64,000 bases of DNA, from IMG/VR virus record IMGVR_UViG_3300049846_001717, positions 1 to 64,000 of that record; one strand, given 5' to 3'. Positions 1,767 through 47,330 of this stretch are shown piece after piece. The notes under the pieces are model-generated. The model was not told the DNA's origin. It did not search any database and saw nothing but the letters and a program-made list of their open reading frames with translations. Each line of letters begins with the position of its first letter. Positions within the stretch are counted from its first letter, which is position 1. Source of the stretch: a virus. A program made the position numbers and the translations under genes.

Positions 1767-3365
1767 TTACTGGCTCTGTTGAATCAATTTCATTGCGGCT
1801 TGGTGCGCGGCATGATCAGCCGGATATTTCAGTGCCGACTTGACGAGAATGTCATTGCCCGTGTCAGGGTTTTTGACTTTCTGGTTCATTACGTCCGTGT
1901 CGGAGGTAATGCTACCTGTTTGTTTCTCGTATTCCTTCTGAACAATGACCAACGCTTCATCAGGAGTCAATCCTGGATTTGCATACCACGCGTCTTCCAC
2001 AGCACTCAATAGATTCTTGATGATTGGACCCGGTTTGATACCCAAGGTTCGCATGATATCATTGCCATTGATAGGCAATGTGGGCTTATTGGCGGACAAG
2101 GCCATACTGGACCGTAGAGTGTCCATGCGGTGCTTGATGAATTCGATTTGGTTGGGCATGGAAGCATGTGCTGAATGCGATACATTGTCCGCTTGCATGG
2201 TTTTCAGCGCCGCATCCAAATCATCACCGAGGTCGGCCATGAACTTTCGGATGGCCTTGTCACTGATACCCGTGCCATCGGGACCGGCGGGCTTGAGTCG
2301 CATGTGTTCTTTGACAATTTTCGCCACCGAATTGATTTGATCCAACGGATATTTCAATCGGCGCATAGCCTCATTAGCAATTTCCGATCCCACATCCTCG
2401 TGTCGATAGAAATGAACACCGGTTTCATCCTCACTTTTCGTTTGAGGTTTGCCAATGTCATGAAATAACGACGCCAATCGGGCAGTGATGTCCGGTTCTG
2501 TGTTCTTCAACACTTTCATGATGTGATTGAACACATCGTCATCATGATACGCATTTTGGGACACACCCACGCACGCGTTCAATTCAGGTAGAACGTGTTT
2601 GTTCAATCCGGTAAAGACCAGCAACTTGATGGCCTTATCCGGTGCATCCGTCATCAACATCTTGTCCAATTCTTCTCGTACACGTTCTTTTGAAATGGTC
2701 TGTAACATGTCAGCATTCTTTCGTAACGCCTTGACCATGGAAATGGGCATCTTCCAATTGTATTTTACAGCAAATCGAATGGCCCGCAACATACGAAGCG
2801 GGTCATCTTTGAACGTAGAATCAGGATCCATCGGTGTTCGAACGATACCATCACGAATGTCGCTCAATCCCATACCCGTGAGATCCAAAACTTCGCCAGT
2901 GGACAGATTTTTGAAGAGTGAATTGACCGTCAAATCTCGACGAAAGGCATCTTCTTTCAGATCGGCGAATATTACTTCAGGCTTTCGGGAATTCTTTTCG
3001 TATGTCTCACCACGCGTCATAACCGATTCGATATCCACGTTGGATAGGTCTACCCCATTGTGTGTGACACCCCGAAGATTGAATTTTGCCGTGCCAAATC
3101 GCGGAAATACGACCGGATTGGCACCTTCGCGGAACGCCCCCACACGGCGGGTGATCCAATTCGCAAATGCAATACCACCGTCGGGCATAGGAATAACGAC
3201 ATCGATATCCTTAACGGGTTTGCCGAGAATTTGGTCGCGCACGGCACCACCGGCCAGCATGACCTTTCCTTCGTACGGAGTACCTTTCAATATCTTTGAA
3301 AAATAGTCCAACGCGGCGTCTTCTTTAGACGCATAATTCTCCAGCAACAATCGAAATCGGATCAT
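1767..3365 (-). CDS. cca: CCA tRNA nucleotidyltransferase with HD domain
   Basis: A 532-residue protein. The class-II nucleotidyltransferase head shows LAGGAVRDQILG near 37-48 and the metal-binding DIDVV just after. RRDLTVNSLF follows, and DPLRMLRAIRFA marks the RNA-binding neck. An HD phosphohydrolase domain with LFHDIGKP and later RHED comes next, the layout of bacterial multifunctional CCA enzymes. It adds or repairs the 3' CCA of tRNA. No phage tRNA that I folded encodes CCA, so this enzyme would be needed to mature the array at 26-45 kb. The C-terminal 40 residues hold the VKNPDTGNDILVKSALKY module shared with the next gene. Confidence 0.93.
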   Translation of the reverse strand: MIRFRLLLENYASKEDAALDYFSKILKGTPYEGKVMLAGGAVRDQILGKPVKDIDVVIPMPDGGIAFANWITRRVGAFREGANPVVFPRFGTAKFNLRGVTHNGVDLSNVDIESVMTRGETYEKNSRKPEVIFADLKEDAFRRDLTVNSLFKNLSTGEVLDLTGMGLSDIRDGIVRTPMDPDSTFKDDPLRMLRAIRFAVKYNWKMPISMVKALRKNADMLQTISKERVREELDKMLMTDAPDKAIKLLVFTGLNKHVLPELNACVGVSQNAYHDDDVFNHIMKVLKNTEPDITARLASLFHDIGKPQTKSEDETGVHFYRHEDVGSEIANEAMRRLKYPLDQINSVAKIVKEHMRLKPAGPDGTGISDKAIRKFMADLGDDLDAALKTMQADNVSHSAHASMPNQIEFIKHRMDTLRSSMALSANKPTLPINGNDIMRTLGIKPGPIIKNLLSAVEDAWYANPGLTPDEALVIVQKEYEKQTGSITSDTDVMNQKVKNPDTGNDILVKSALKYPADHAAHQAAMKLIQQSQ

Positions 3366-24841: not shown

Positions 24842-25194
24842 TGGATCCGGGCGGAATCGAACCGCCGTCCGAAATACCGTACTAACAGTATCTTCTCCGT
24901 GCGCAGATGGGTGTCTTATTTCGGTGTACGATGTCACACTCATCGAAGCCATCGTACACCTAGTTCATAAGGCATTCATACGATATGAACGTCTCGTATG
25001 AATTTACTCATCTATCGGTTTCCCGTTCCGTCAATTCAGTACGATGAGAGAACTGAACGAGGATTCGCATACTCTTAAGCAGCGAGAGGAAGTGCTGTGT
25101 TTGCACTTGAATTTTTGACGACAGTTACGGATGTACGTCCTTTCCGGCACGCTTCATTCTGTGTTCGTGTTTCCGTCGAAACCAGGTCGGACCC
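24842..25194 (-). ncRNA. ssrA: tmRNA (ssrA), tag peptide ANTALPLAA
   Basis: The minus-strand 5' end reads GGGTCCG then ACCTGGTTTCGACGG, the tmRNA start box. The 3' end has a T-arm (GGCGG, TTCGATT, CCGCC) and acceptor strand CGGATCC-A, which pairs over 7 bp with the 5' end. A reading frame from GCA at 25104 to TAA at 25075 encodes ANTALPLAA, the length and LAA ending of ssrA tags, preceded by an A-rich resume region. Several stable stems between the tag and the tRNA part fit pseudoknots (GTACGATG with CATCGTAC). tmRNA frees stalled ribosomes and tags the product for proteases. No CCA is encoded. It lies just after the gene ending at 25194. Confidence 0.95.
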
Positions 25195-26431: not shown

Positions 26432-27124
26432 TCAACCTTTGTTGGCAAGTAGCTTGTCCAACCGCCACCAGTACGTTTGATATTCGCCCTTAATTTGCAA
26501 CTTCTGCTTGAACAACGGATAGTCGGCGGCGTACTTATCGTTCTTTTCGCCTTCCGTTGCGTTGGCCAATCGATCACAGAGCTTTACGAATACAGCTTCA
26601 CGATCGGTATTAATTCGATCATAATAGCTGGTATTGGATTCCTTCGGTCGTTTGGTTACAAGGTCAACGATGTGTGCCACTTTTGGACCAAATTGTTTTT
26701 CCAATTGTTCCTTAGTGATGGATGTATCTTCCAACACATCATGCAACAATGCGGCCTGTCGTGACGCTGTTGTGCCGCCCTGTGCTAGTTGAAATACTTT
26801 GAGCAAATGATATTTGTATGGCTTATTTCCATACATCTGATCGCCATGGGCTCTGAGCGCAAAGTTGAGAGCCGACCCATAGTTTTGCTGTAGGTGACTG
26901 TCCGGAGCTTTCCCGGCTCGTCCTGATCTACCCGATGATCTATGTTGTGGATGATCGGGGTCCGTTTCTTTATCAAAGATATACTCTAACTTCCCATCCA
27001 CCGTTCGGGCCACGATCTCACCAGATGAATTGGCCCAATAACCCCACCCCTTACTGATCAAGCCACGCTTTTTAGCCTCGTCGCTGGCAGTAGATTCATT
27101 GAATATTTCAAGTAGTAGGATCAT
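26432..27124 (-). CDS. RelA/SpoT-type HD hydrolase (possible ppGpp hydrolase)
   Basis: A 230-residue protein. Residues about 85-200 match the hydrolase half of RelA/SpoT or MESH1: FALRAHGDQMYGNKPYKYHL, AALLHDVLEDT (the HDxxED motif), YDRINTDREAVFVKLCDRLANAT. No synthetase domain is seen. It may lower host (p)ppGpp during infection. The N-terminal 75 residues hold a separate domain (GWGYWANSSGEIVARTVDG). It lies between two serine tRNAs. Confidence 0.78.
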   Translation of the reverse strand: MILLLEIFNESTASDEAKKRGLISKGWGYWANSSGEIVARTVDGKLEYIFDKETDPDHPQHRSSGRSGRAGKAPDSHLQQNYGSALNFALRAHGDQMYGNKPYKYHLLKVFQLAQGGTTASRQAALLHDVLEDTSITKEQLEKQFGPKVAHIVDLVTKRPKESNTSYYDRINTDREAVFVKLCDRLANATEGEKNDKYAADYPLFKQKLQIKGEYQTYWWRLDKLLANKG

Positions 27125-28840: not shown

Positions 28841-29061
28841 TACCACTCCTCGTATGAGGTAACATCCAATGTTTCATTGGTTAATGCATCATGAATTTTA
28901 ACAATGGTTCCCAAGCCAGTAGGCGTAAAACTATAAGTAAATCTACCACCAGCGGCACCGGTGCGGCGCGATATCTTCTTTTCTTTAATTATCGTATCCA
29001 AAAATTCTACCCACTTTTCAATTTTTGGAGCGGCATCAAGTGGTATATTAAATAGAGTCAT
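28840..29061 (-). CDS. Small hypothetical protein
   Basis: A 73-residue protein (MTLFNIPLDAAPKIEKWVEF...) with a Gly/Arg patch SRRTGAAGGRFTYSF. It overlaps the Pth2-like gene by 4 nt. No family is recognised. Confidence 0.6.
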   Translation of the reverse strand: MTLFNIPLDAAPKIEKWVEFLDTIIKEKKISRRTGAAGGRFTYSFTPTGLGTIVKIHDALTNETLDVTSYEEW

Positions 29062-29417
29062 TTCACAAGTGATAGATGTTTAAGTGCTTTTGCCTCTTCT
29101 CGGGTCAATGGACCGATACCAAGTGCAGTCATAATAGGGTTGCCATCAAAGTGAGGAGGCATAACATGGCCAGAATCAATGATGAGACTGTGTGGCCACC
29201 CATTGGCCTTCGCCAGTTTGACCAAGGCACGTATATCGGTGACAGAGCCTTCTAGAGTGACCTTCGTACCCAATCCACCCTTCTGATAGAGCCTGGCACG
29301 CCTGGGATTGAGTTGAACACACTCCAAATACGAATTAAGGAAAGCGTGACCCGCTTGAGCGGCCAGCTTTCCTGTCGGCATGTGTAAATCTTTACGAACT
29401 ATGGCATAGAGCTTCAT
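29058..29417 (-). CDS. Peptidyl-tRNA hydrolase, Pth2 type
   Basis: A 119-residue protein: KLYAIVRKDLHMPTGKLAAQ, AGHAFLNSY, TKVTLEG, LIIDSGHV and TALGIGPLTREEAKAL. The last two are the Pth2 fingerprint (usually TVLGIGP near the end). Pth2 frees tRNA from dropped peptides and is typical of archaea and eukaryotes but also occurs in phages and some bacteria. It fits the phage tRNA and tmRNA equipment around it. Confidence 0.88.
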   Translation of the reverse strand: MKLYAIVRKDLHMPTGKLAAQAGHAFLNSYLECVQLNPRRARLYQKGGLGTKVTLEGSVTDIRALVKLAKANGWPHSLIIDSGHVMPPHFDGNPIMTALGIGPLTREEAKALKHLSLVK

Positions 29418-29530: not shown

Positions 29531-29602
29531 AGCTCGTGGCGAGGCTTGAACTCGCTTCTTTCGTTTTAGAGACGAAGGCACCGGCCGATATACCACACGA
29601 GC
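29531..29602 (-). tRNA. Amber suppressor tRNA, anticodon CUA
   Basis: All four arms fold: acceptor GCTCGTG/CACGAGC, D-arm, anticodon stem TTCGT/ACGAA with the 7-nt loop CTCTAAA, short variable loop and T-arm GCGAG/CTCGC. U33 is kept and positions 34-36 read CUA, pairing with UAG. N73 is U. The first 20 bases resemble the neighbouring tRNA-Val(GAC). The amino acid it carries cannot be told. Confidence 0.9.
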
Positions 29603-30096: not shown

Positions 30097-30170
30097 TAGC
30101 GGAGGTTGGATTTGAACCAACGTCCTTCCGGTTATGAGCCGGACGCGCTGCCGGGCTGCGCCACTCCGCG
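30097..30170 (-). tRNA. Initiator-type tRNA-fMet(CAU)
   Basis: The sequence closely follows bacterial initiator tRNA: CGCGGAG start, D-arm GCGCAGCCCGGCAGCGCG, loop CTCATAA, T-loop TTCAAAT. Positions 1 and 72 are C and U, a mismatch as in initiators. The anticodon stem ends in two G:C pairs, not the usual three. No CCA is encoded. Confidence 0.85.
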
Positions 30171-30219
30171 TCAATGTTACTTTAACTGTCGAACTTTGAT
30201 CTCATACGTCCCTGTGGGG

Positions 30220-30555
30220 GTTGGATGCCAATAGCCAGGATTCTGTATAATGACAATCATTTGACTCAGTCCTCTTGCGAGGACCGCCCCACGTTTATAG
30301 TGAGGTGCTCTCAACCCGATACCTTTGGTCAGACGGACCCGTATCTGCTCGAGATTGCAGCGCCTATCCTGTCGCCCGTTTCATCCACCGCGTTATCGTG
30401 GCTCGTTTCTGTTGCCGTGACTCCATTTCGGAAAATACGAATTTCTCCATAAGATTCCTTATAGGGGAGCAGCTTCCACTCTAGGCTGTCTTGTGCTGTC
30501 CTGAACTTCCTCAACGTACAATCTAGTGTACGCCGCGATTGTCTAGGCATCCAAC
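30220..30555 (-). ncRNA. rnpB: RNase P RNA (M1-like)
   Basis: The ends pair over 10 bp (GTTGGATGCC with GGCATCCAAC, P1). GACAATC pairs with GATTGTC (P2), and CAGGA with TCCTG (P4). Conserved boxes are recognisable: GAGGAAGTTCAGG (CR-I), GGCAACAGAAACGA (CR-III), GATGAAACGG, CTCGAGCAGA (CR-IV) and CAAATGATTGTC...ACAGAATCCTGGCTA (CR-V). The P4 pairs differ from E. coli in a compensated way. It is about 336 nt, a normal size. RNase P makes tRNA 5' ends; the gene sits inside the tRNA array. The protein subunit was not found in this window. Confidence 0.93.
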
Positions 30556-30695
30556 TGTTTTACGATGTCCCGCAATTCCTTCCATTCGTCCTTCGTGAAT
30601 TCCGAACCATCCTTGTACATCGGACCGACAAACGTGTCACCCGAATGTAGTCTAACATGTTCGATGAACTTTGTCAAGAGCGATTTGTAGTTCAT
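30543..30695 (-). CDS. Small protein upstream of RNase P RNA
   Basis: A 50-residue frame (MNYKSLLTKFIEHVRLHSGD...) with SD AAGGA. Its last four codons and TAG overlap the P1 strand of RNase P RNA, so the two must come from one transcript or compete for it. No family is recognised. Confidence 0.65.
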   Translation of the reverse strand: MNYKSLLTKFIEHVRLHSGDTFVGPMYKDGSEFTKDEWKELRDIVKQLDA

Positions 30696-30831: not shown

Positions 30832-30834
30832 AAG

Positions 30835-30907
30835 TCGGAAAGACAGGACTTGAACCTGCAACCCCCTGGTCCCAAACCAGGTGATCTGCCAATTGATCTA
30901 CTTTCCG
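30835..30907 (-). tRNA. tRNA-Pro(UGG)
   Basis: Standard fold with stem CCTGG/CCAGG and loop TTTGGGA, anticodon UGG. The acceptor is CGGAAAG with CTTTCCG. A second UGG gene lies at 38401. No CCA is encoded. Confidence 0.9.
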
Positions 30908-31247
30908 AGTAGAGGGGAACGGGCTGAGAATACACCCGTTCTAGTCATCCTTTTGAACCATTATCCATCCCACATCCCTGTGAGACGTTCGATTCGTTTC
31001 CACGGTGACTCTCACCGTCGATGACCACAGCGACCTTTTTTAAAGTGTGGCGTTTCACTTGTCGTCTAGCACTTCTCGACACTTCTCCTACCGTCTGCCT
31101 TGCGAGCAGTACACAGTCGCTAAACCGTTACGTGCGGGTCTATATCGAAGACTCTCTGGCTTGGGGCCATCGAATCCGCCGTCTTCCTTGCGGGACGGCA
31201 TTACGCTGTTTATCATGCTTAGACCGAGGAAGTCTTTCCGTTTTTGG
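30908..31247 (-). ncRNA. Structured non-coding stretch, candidate large RNA
   Basis: 340 nt without a credible gene. It contains several GCAA-loop hairpins (near CCCGCAAGG and CTCGCAAGG) and a GACGGTGA/TCACCGT stem. Its density of hairpins resembles large phage-associated RNAs, but no family could be matched by eye. Confidence 0.35.
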
Positions 31248-31318
31248 ATTCGTATGATGGATTTGAACCACCATTAAATTGTTAATAGCAATGTGCCTTA
31301 CCGTTAGGCAAATACGAC
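31248..31318 (-). tRNA. tRNA-Asn-like (anticodon AUU)
   Basis: T-arm GGTGG/CCATC with loop TTCAAAT, D-arm GCC/GGC, and anticodon loop CTATTAA on a 4-bp stem. Positions 34-36 read AUU, with an unusual A34, and the first acceptor pair is mismatched (G:A). This may be a decaying gene. Two normal Asn(GUU) genes are at 40894 and 40996. Confidence 0.55.
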
Positions 31319-31933
31319 TTTGAACGAAGTGCTTCCTCAGTTGTTCCAATGACTTTTGATCATCAGAATGCAACACTCCGCGGCTACCGTTCCCCCTGAA
31401 CAGGGTACTACGTCATACGTCACGAACTCGGGCTGGCCTCTTAATAGCGGACAGCTCAGTTCATTAGTATTCCTGTGAAGCTCTTGGTTTCAAGGCCTCG
31501 AACCTCACAAGTATCTGTTACCTATCTGTTCTCGCGTGTGGGTTGAAATGGAGCCCGGCACCACCCGTCAGACTTCATGAACTTGCTTTCCTTCCCGAAG
31601 GAAGGGGCGTCAGCCCACGTTTTTCCCATTTCCACGCTTCGAACCTATCACCGAACCTTCGCCCGATGCTACTGGCTTCGAACCAGTAAAGGCCAGACTT
31701 GTTTGGATGAACCGTCTTGCGACGGCCCGGGTTACAAAGATAGCCCGGTTTATAGGCCTTACGACCTACTGTTCTTACGGAGTCCAAACACCCCGTTGTT
31801 TCGATTATCAAACAACACTACAATATGGCGGTGTAAAATCAAACTCGATTGTTACAACCCAATCAAGAATTGCCCTGATCGTAAATCCCGTAGTTGCGTT
31901 AGAGTTTCACGACCCTATTGATTTCACACCATA
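31319..31933 (-). ncRNA. Long structured non-coding stretch with tRNA-like fragment
   Basis: 615 nt with no supported gene. At 31667-31756 a T-arm (ACTGG, TTCGAAG, CCAGT) follows a D-like region with a GCAA hairpin (CCGTC-GCAA-GACGG) that matches the insert in the tRNA at 29864; no anticodon loop is visible. The rest holds several long stems. It may be one large RNA together with 30908-31247. Confidence 0.35.
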
Positions 31934-36527: not shown

Positions 36528-37200
36528 TTATTGTAATAGTTCGAGTTGACCTCGGAGTACGTCTTTCAACCGGACTTTCTTATCCGATCGATGATCGGTG
36601 ACGATACCGTCCTGTTCCCGATACGTTCGAATCTTATCGCCTCGCATTCCCGAACCTACAAGCTGTTTGCGGTCACCATCGGCTTGCCGTTTCGATTGTT
36701 CGGCCATATACGTGGCTACTCGATGTTCCAACAGTTCACGAGCAGTACGACGATTCTGATGTTGACTCTTCTCTGCGGCTTTCGCTTCGATCTTTGTTGG
36801 TTCGTGCCGCATGATGACACATGATTCAGTCTTGTTACGATGTTGACCGCCGGGGCCGGAATCCTTAGTGGTAAACGTCGTAATGTCTGATTCCTTCAAT
36901 CGCCATGACGCAGGTTCTTTGATCTCAAAGACGGCTACGGTGACGGTTGATGTGTGAACCCGACCACGACGTTCGGTGGGCGGAATACGTTGCCATCGAT
37001 GACCACCTGATTCATTCATCAATAATCGGAGCTTTGAATCGGTGCCTTCGATGATCAGGTCAAAGACTACCTCGGTTCTCCGAAATCACGGACGCGCCGA
37101 GACGAGAGGCAAACGACAGATAGATGTTGGCTTGGTTGGACACGAGCAGTTTTGCATCAGTGCCACCTTCACCAGGTCGGATTTCTACGAGGTATTTCAT
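36528..37200 (-). CDS. Class-I peptide release factor with prfB-like +1 frameshift
   Basis: Frame 1 starts at 37200 (MKYLVEIRPGEGGTDAKLLV...) and stops at TGA 37060-37062 after 46 codons. Skipping one T of CTT-TGA-C continues in +1 frame as DLIIEGTDSKLRLLMNESGG and ends at 36528, about 223 residues in total. The catalytic GGQ is in SGPGGQHRNKTES, and the recognition segment RIPPTERRGRVHTS has PPT, like RF1's PxT, not RF2's SPF. GAGGT sits 3 nt before CTT, as in bacterial prfB. The N-terminal domain 1 is absent. Confidence 0.85.
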
Positions 37201-40355: not shown

Positions 40356-40429
40356 TGGACACCACGGGAATCGAACCCGTCACATCGTCATTGCGAATGA
40401 CAATCGCCACCCTTGGTACATTGGCGCCC
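40356..40429 (-). tRNA. tRNA-Ala(CGC)
   Basis: Stem TGTCA/TGACG (one G:U), loop TTCGCAA, anticodon CGC. Acceptor GGGCGCC/GGTGTCC includes two G:U pairs. No CCA is encoded. Confidence 0.85.
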
Positions 40430-40499
40430 GAGCCCGCAACCGGCGATGTCCCGGCGAGTTGACCTCCCTTCAACTCTTTCATGCGGCGGATTATTTCAA

Positions 40500-45707: not shown

Positions 45708-47330
<1,623 letters not shown>

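Follow-up and report, generated by a model that had tools for sequence, protein, structure and literature searches.

We found that the window (the whole stretch of viral DNA analysed here, 64,000 nucleotides from the IMG/VR record IMGVR_UViG_3300049846_001717) almost certainly encodes an RNase P RNA at positions 30220-30555 of the minus strand, within an array of phage tRNA genes. The gene is two-domain and type-A-like, running from P1 to P1, and was delimited from the sequence, the Rfam model RF00010 and R1, a covariance model of phage mini RNAs described below. RF00010 matches positions 30217-30554 (-) over its full length (model positions 1-367 of 367) with 72.8 bits, at E = 4e-22 when a 681-base stretch was searched against all 4227 Rfam families and at E = 1.4e-23 when the whole 98-kb record was scanned, where this is the sole RNase P match. 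A preliminary description, made from the sequence alone, had placed an RNase P RNA inside the tRNA array and named a covariance-model search as its check; the significant full-length match bears that reading out. Because the score lies below the RF00010 gathering score of 100 bits, standard annotation at the gathering threshold misses the gene, and we class it as a type-A-like RNase P RNA rather than a certified RF00010 member. Its folding energy has a z of -3.7 (100 dinucleotide shuffles, none equally stable), and the signal is not due to chance. The pseudoknotted P4 is not recovered by minimum free energy (MFE) folding alone, and such folding was therefore not taken as a structural argument.

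All parts of the RNA lie on the minus strand, and its main helices can be read directly. P1 consists of 10 bp between GUUGGAUGCC (30546-30555) and GGCAUCCAAC (30220-30229), and P2 of 7 bp between GACAAUC (30537-30543, also placed by the RF00010 alignment) and GAUUGUC (30252-30258), both as first described. The P3 hairpin (30513-30534) is seen in the sequence and in the RNAfold centroid. CR-I, GAGGAAGUUCAGGAC (30498-30512), occurs once in the window and supplies the 5' strand of P4, including a bulged U at 30504 that the column pattern of the mini RNA alignment equates with E. coli U69. The 3' strand of P4 is supplied by CR-V, ACAGAAUCCUGGCUAU (30231-30246), which is covered by both the RF00010 and R1 matches. 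P4 itself reads AGU-(U)-CAGGA/UCCUG-GCU, that is, 8 bp and one bulged U; as the preliminary description had proposed, it is compensated, with a sequence unlike the bacterial form and its pairs kept. The RF00010 alignment places CR-II, ACAGAAAC (30405-30412), and CR-III, GAUGAAAC (30378-30385), in the S-domain, and together with R1 it places CR-IV/J5-15 at GCAA (30355-30358). CR-II is an addition to the four boxes listed earlier (CR-I, CR-III, CR-IV and CR-V), all of which were found as stated in the sequence and the RF00010 alignment. P15-P16-P17 (30309-30354), with the helix partners UCUC/GAGA, GAUAC/GUAUC and GGUC/GACC, carries a GGU loop at 30314-30316 that R1 aligns as CGGGUU. The GGU loop of bacterial RNase P binds the 3' CCA of tRNA. 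Sequence and folding also give a P18 hairpin, GUCCUC-GCAA-GAGGAC, with a GNRA loop (30269-30284). A 50-residue open reading frame (30543-30695, -) had been noted to end over P1, and indeed its last codons and TAG overlap P1 and the first base of P2, the stop falling within P1.

The surroundings are those of a tRNA-rich tailed phage, as indicated by a baseplate wedge protein in the record. ARAGORN predicts 46 tRNAs between 26263 and 45635, all on the minus strand and none encoding CCA. The RNase P RNA lies between a tRNA-Pro upstream (30834-30907, -) and a tRNA-Met downstream (30097-30170, -), 49 nt away. The window also encodes a tmRNA (24842-25194) and a CCA-adding tRNA nucleotidyltransferase (1767-3365, -; phrog_2244 E = 8.9e-59, PF01743 E = 3.9e-22). 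Directly upstream of tRNA-Pro is a GOLLD RNA (30921-31383, -, 172 bits) that encloses a tRNA-Asn(att). Two other tRNA predictions are unusual. The first (29531-29602, -) has a CTA anticodon, is labelled Pyl by ARAGORN and resembles an amber suppressor, and it may bear on how the window phage reads TAG. The second (40356-40451, -) reads a four-base anticodon loop (acca) and is possibly a frameshift tRNA or an artefact. We also detected a PTH2-type peptidyl-tRNA hydrolase (29058-29417, -), a 164-aa RF-1-domain protein with a partial PCRF (36528-37022, -), an HD hydrolase (26432-27124, -) and GroEL (45708-47327, -), which together make up an unusually wide set of translation and folding functions.

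A second, independent contig of 105 kb (G036) has the same gene order as the window phage, a comparable tRNA array and a baseplate protein 66% identical to that of the window phage. It encodes an RNase P RNA of 201 nt, which the archaeal model RF00373 matches over its full length (46.8 bits, E = 1.4e-10). This RNA occupies the same slot as in the window phage, between tRNA-Met/Gln and tRNA-Pro and beside GOLLD, and it has lost almost all of the S-domain, of which a small hairpin remains. Its CR-I and CR-V are GAGGAAGUUCGCAGC and ACAGAACUGCGGCUA. Compared with the window P4, the AGU/GCU half is identical and the variable half is changed on both sides. Searches with RF00010 gave no match in the baseplate relatives, G036 among them, or in the GroEL relatives, because such small RNAs score too low against this model; that of G036 was revealed by RF00373 on the region L113. 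The GOLLD RNA of G036 (L113 7903-8369) contains a tRNA-Ser, a group I intron (64.9 bits; L113 9806-10007, -) lies within its tRNA array, and the CTA-anticodon tRNA is kept (47207-47279).

These two RNAs belong to a larger family. A search motif common to both (AAATGAT, 4-20 nt, ACAGAANNNNGGCTA) was found in 67 viral contigs, about half of which also have an upstream GAGGAAG(U/C)UC box, a P4 pairing and a CR-I to CR-V core of 118-307 nt. Combining the pattern scan, alignment, BLAST and model searches, we detected mini RNase P RNAs in about 40 phage records, including the huge phages LR756508 (484 kb), LR756511 (595 kb), LR745206 (635 kb) and LR756501/LR756503 (735 kb). All of these except LR756508 were added by BLAST with the mini RNAs, as was the cultured Stenotrophomonas phage vB_SmaS-DLP_6 (DLP6), whose RNA (KU682439.2, 105774-106022) lies in an unannotated gap adjoining a tRNA-Arg and matches RF00010 independently (54.7 bits, E = 3.3e-17). 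The publication on DLP6 gives the number of tRNAs as 30 and makes no mention of RNase P (PMC5349666). Independent matches to Rfam RNase P models were obtained for eight of 20 mini loci (E = 5e-14 to 1e-5). The family signature, a CR-I of GAGGAAG(U/C)UC, a CR-V of ACAGAA-NNNN-GGCUA and a compensated P4 in a phage, is also that of the window RNA. The change in the window P4 is thus the signature of a phage-specific family and not a private change. Most members are minis with the C-domain only, and the window RNA is a rare full-size, two-domain member. At the other extreme is a subclass of RNAs of about 150-190 nt in all, whose CR-I to CR-V core measures only about 120 nt and whose J5/15-P15 region is altered as well (L137 658-854, -; L163 3955-4141, +; L188 12215-12386, +).

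The model R1 was built from 21 minis with the window RNA left out, and it finds the window RNA with 45.4 bits (E = 1.1e-9 in 0.79 Mb); over the whole record of the window phage it covers this RNA in part, with 21.5 bits. Relative to R1 the S-domain of the window RNA is a 108-nt insertion at the place of P7/P8, and G036 and the other minis are without it. In the records behind the loci R1 matches about 43 places at E < 1e-6, roughly half of which are its training set. Strong matches outside that set were obtained in LR745206 (E = 9.5e-31), in the records of L139 (E = 1.5e-22) and L189 (E = 9.5e-36), and as an additional match in the 484-kb LR756508 (E = 9.7e-23). A weak R1 match in L264/L297 was attributed to chance, its CR-V side alone matching with no upstream CR-I, and a pattern match in L128 was rejected, its P4 pairing at one of four positions. 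A pattern with fixed CR-I/CR-II/CR-V spacing had no match, and protein scans with the CCA-adding enzyme and an HNH protein gave no useful new relatives.

The structure of the family is supported by covariation. We aligned 22 minis, the window RNA not included, and marked P1, P2, P3, P4, P5, P7, P8, P15 and P16. In this alignment 89.2% of the cells are paired, compared with 62.8% after shuffling and 29-49% after sliding; the covariation score is 0.591, compared with 0.167 and 0.07-0.12, respectively. Relatedness among the sequences is kept by the slid controls and lost in the shuffles. Changes on both sides occur at 43 of the 51 pairs. Covariation supports P1, P2, P3 and the helices of the P15 region, and the window RNA fits the model built from these minis. 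For P4, 98.9% of the cells are paired. Among 37 non-redundant phage RNAs we counted 18 different four-pair P4 combinations, and P4 is fully paired in 34 of them, as opposed to 128 of 1182 (11%) after strands were swapped between RNAs. Within this variation, the bulged U, the pairs A65-U301 and G66-C300 (alignment columns), the ACAG of CR-V and A171 of J5/15 are invariant in all 22 minis; ACAGAA in CR-V is nearly invariant and the GG of L15 is conserved. In the RNA of LR745206.1 (L193, about 2970-3190, +), the G-C pair of columns 66/300 appears by eye to be swapped to C-G.

We searched for the phage signature, though not for every RNase P RNA, in 84,980 species genomes of bacteria and archaea (GTDB, 257 Gb). 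It gave 24 pattern matches, 23 of which were rejected as having no CR-I of the right kind and model scores of at most 24.8 bits. The one real match (R1 E = 3.2e-39) is a contig of 3053 bp (JAAXWV010000224.1) filed in a Candidatus Roizmanbacteria MAG; it carries an HNH-like gene and 13 tRNAs, all on the same strand, and is probably a mis-binned phage fragment. With one real match among so many genomes, the signature is a phage trait in the collections searched. Within the phages it keeps company with tRNAs, which lie at most 6 kb away at 25 of the 35 loci scanned, all on the same strand as the RNA. The tRNA-rich phages XacN1, Atu_ph07, G and S-CRM01 gave no RNase P RNA match, so such an RNA is not a requirement for phages rich in tRNAs.

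The protein subunit RnpA (PF00825) was found neither in the 98-kb record of the window phage, which is a piece of a genome, nor in 42 of the 43 records tested, and the host protein is therefore the likely partner. The exception is the 635-kb LR745206.1, which encodes RnpA at 76444-76752 (+) (L224 1465-1812; PF00825 E = 2.9e-13) with the motif AVDRNRIKRLMREVSR, and which may have a complete RNase P holoenzyme of its own. Neighbours of this rnpA include phage genes for an RNA ligase and for NAMPT-like and NUDIX-like proteins, ClpP, and a TonB-receptor-like ORF that calls for checking of the assembly there. A CCA-adding enzyme scored above the cut-off in 12 of the 23 RNase P-bearing records tested, the window phage included. 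It did so too in three of 15 phage records that carry no such RNA, a small and unmatched comparison, which makes the co-occurrence of RNA and enzyme only suggestive.

We have good confidence that this is the gene of a phage RNase P RNA that would cut the 5' leaders of phage tRNAs, most likely with host RnpA. A conserved RNase P core is shown by the homology and by the pairing that has been maintained. As judged from the sequence, the RNA would be transcribed in the direction of the surrounding tRNA array and fold into the RNase P core, and it would most likely join host RnpA. The two together may then cut the 5' leaders of the phage tRNAs, and perhaps the tmRNA as well, while the phage CCA-adding enzyme would finish the tRNA 3' ends; in this way the phage may maintain its tRNA supply as host functions fall. 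With tRNAs that do not encode CCA and a CCA-pairing GGU loop that is kept, the likely pathway is CCA addition, by the phage or the host enzyme, plus 5' cleavage. The minis can be enzymes too, as an S-domain-deleted RNase P RNA is active in vitro: the C-domain of the E. coli RNA alone cleaves, with reduced efficiency, both with and without protein (PMC5839562). The earlier proposal that the window RNA would give the phage a tRNA 5' processing RNA of its own thus appears probable.

An alternative is a decoy: by binding host RnpA or substrates, the RNA would block or divert host RNase P and reduce the output of host tRNAs, while leaving the phage tRNAs uncut. The scarcity of RnpA in phage records means that the RNA must use or titrate the host protein, and the minis are without the S-domain, which adds tRNA affinity. 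Nevertheless, we consider a decoy unlikely, as the whole catalytic core is under selection (the bulged-U P4 in 22 of 22 minis, CR-V, A171 of J5/15 and the GG of L15), a CCA-binding loop would be needless for a protein decoy, the same-strand location in tRNA arrays fits processing, and one phage supplies its own RnpA. It is also possible, though quite improbable in our view, that a genuine RNase P RNA here acts mainly on phage RNAs other than tRNAs, such as the tmRNA, the GOLLD RNA or polycistronic mRNAs. The window encodes both a tmRNA and GOLLD, and the reported substrates of bacterial RNase P include pre-tmRNA, mRNAs and certain phage RNAs (PMC10731613; PMC4919922); however, most relatives lie among tRNAs (25 of 35 loci), and we noticed nothing besides tRNAs that accompanies them constantly, GOLLD having been sought in some records. 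That a bacterial rnpB was picked up accidentally and is decaying could be suggested by the score below the curated cut-off and by other tRNA-rich phages without such an RNA, but we reject this very improbable reading in view of the compensatory changes throughout, with 18 P4 combinations, the conserved synteny with G036, the spread over about 40 phages and the absence of the signature from the bacterial genomes searched except for one tRNA-array contig. Lastly, misassembly of host DNA into what is a single metagenomic contig is hardly credible and was rejected, since same-strand phage tRNAs flank the RNA on both sides, the independent contig G036 has it in the same slot, and related RNAs exist in cultured DLP6 and in huge phages.

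The window RNA resembles the bacterial type A RNase P RNA (RF00010) in its P1-P4, P15-P17 with GGU, P18 with GNRA loop, CR-I to CR-V order and full-length match. It differs in being phage-encoded within a tRNA array, in scoring below 100 bits, in sharing its signature with the phage minis, and in its P4, where AGU-U-C/GGCU, with variable but compensated pairs, replaces the bacterial consensus of the model. The minis, in turn, are similar in architecture to the archaeal RNase P RNA of Pyrobaculum, which keeps the catalytic domain and has lost nearly the whole specificity domain, a form termed type P (PMC4919922) or type T (PMC5839562). Unlike it, they are found in phages and have a conserved GGU-type L15, and the window RNA retains its S-domain. 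Another parallel is offered by the diverged RNase P RNAs of CPR bacteria, which also fall under curated cut-offs, have reduced helices and need lowered thresholds (PMC8172020). These are chromosomal, and one was described without the UGG/GGU motif (PMC8172020), whereas the phage RNAs keep GGU and a P4 signature that is absent from the GTDB genomes bar one tRNA-array contig. GOLLD RNA (RF02032) and phage tmRNA, both present in the window, are likewise large structured RNAs of phage tRNA arrays, but are unrelated to RNase P RNA in structure and role. In the literature covered, which took in a minority of subscription papers and preprints, we came across no account of an RNase P RNA from a virus; this does not amount to proof of novelty.

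RNase P RNA is one of a small number of ribozymes that have been traced back to the last universal ancestor, and universal conservation is reported for its P4 (PMC12974513; PMC3486863). On balance, we think that tailed phages, from records of 105 kb and 168 kb up to the huge phages of 735 kb, probably own a branch of RNase P RNA with a rewired P4, in 18 compensated versions, and a stepwise loss of the S-domain down to a CR-I to CR-V core of about 120 nt. The window RNA and the 201-nt RNA of G036 would be two stages of this loss at the same locus. At least one phage appears also to encode the protein subunit, so some may be equipped to mature tRNAs entirely independently of the host, with RNase P and CCA-adding enzyme. 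The free, compensated variation of P4 in these phages amounts to a natural experiment that can tell which elements of the catalytic core are required, and the C-domain-only RNAs of phages that infect bacteria are small ribozymes comparable with the archaeal minimal form. The carriers include some of the largest known phages, and the cultured DLP6 makes the question of phage RNase P directly testable.
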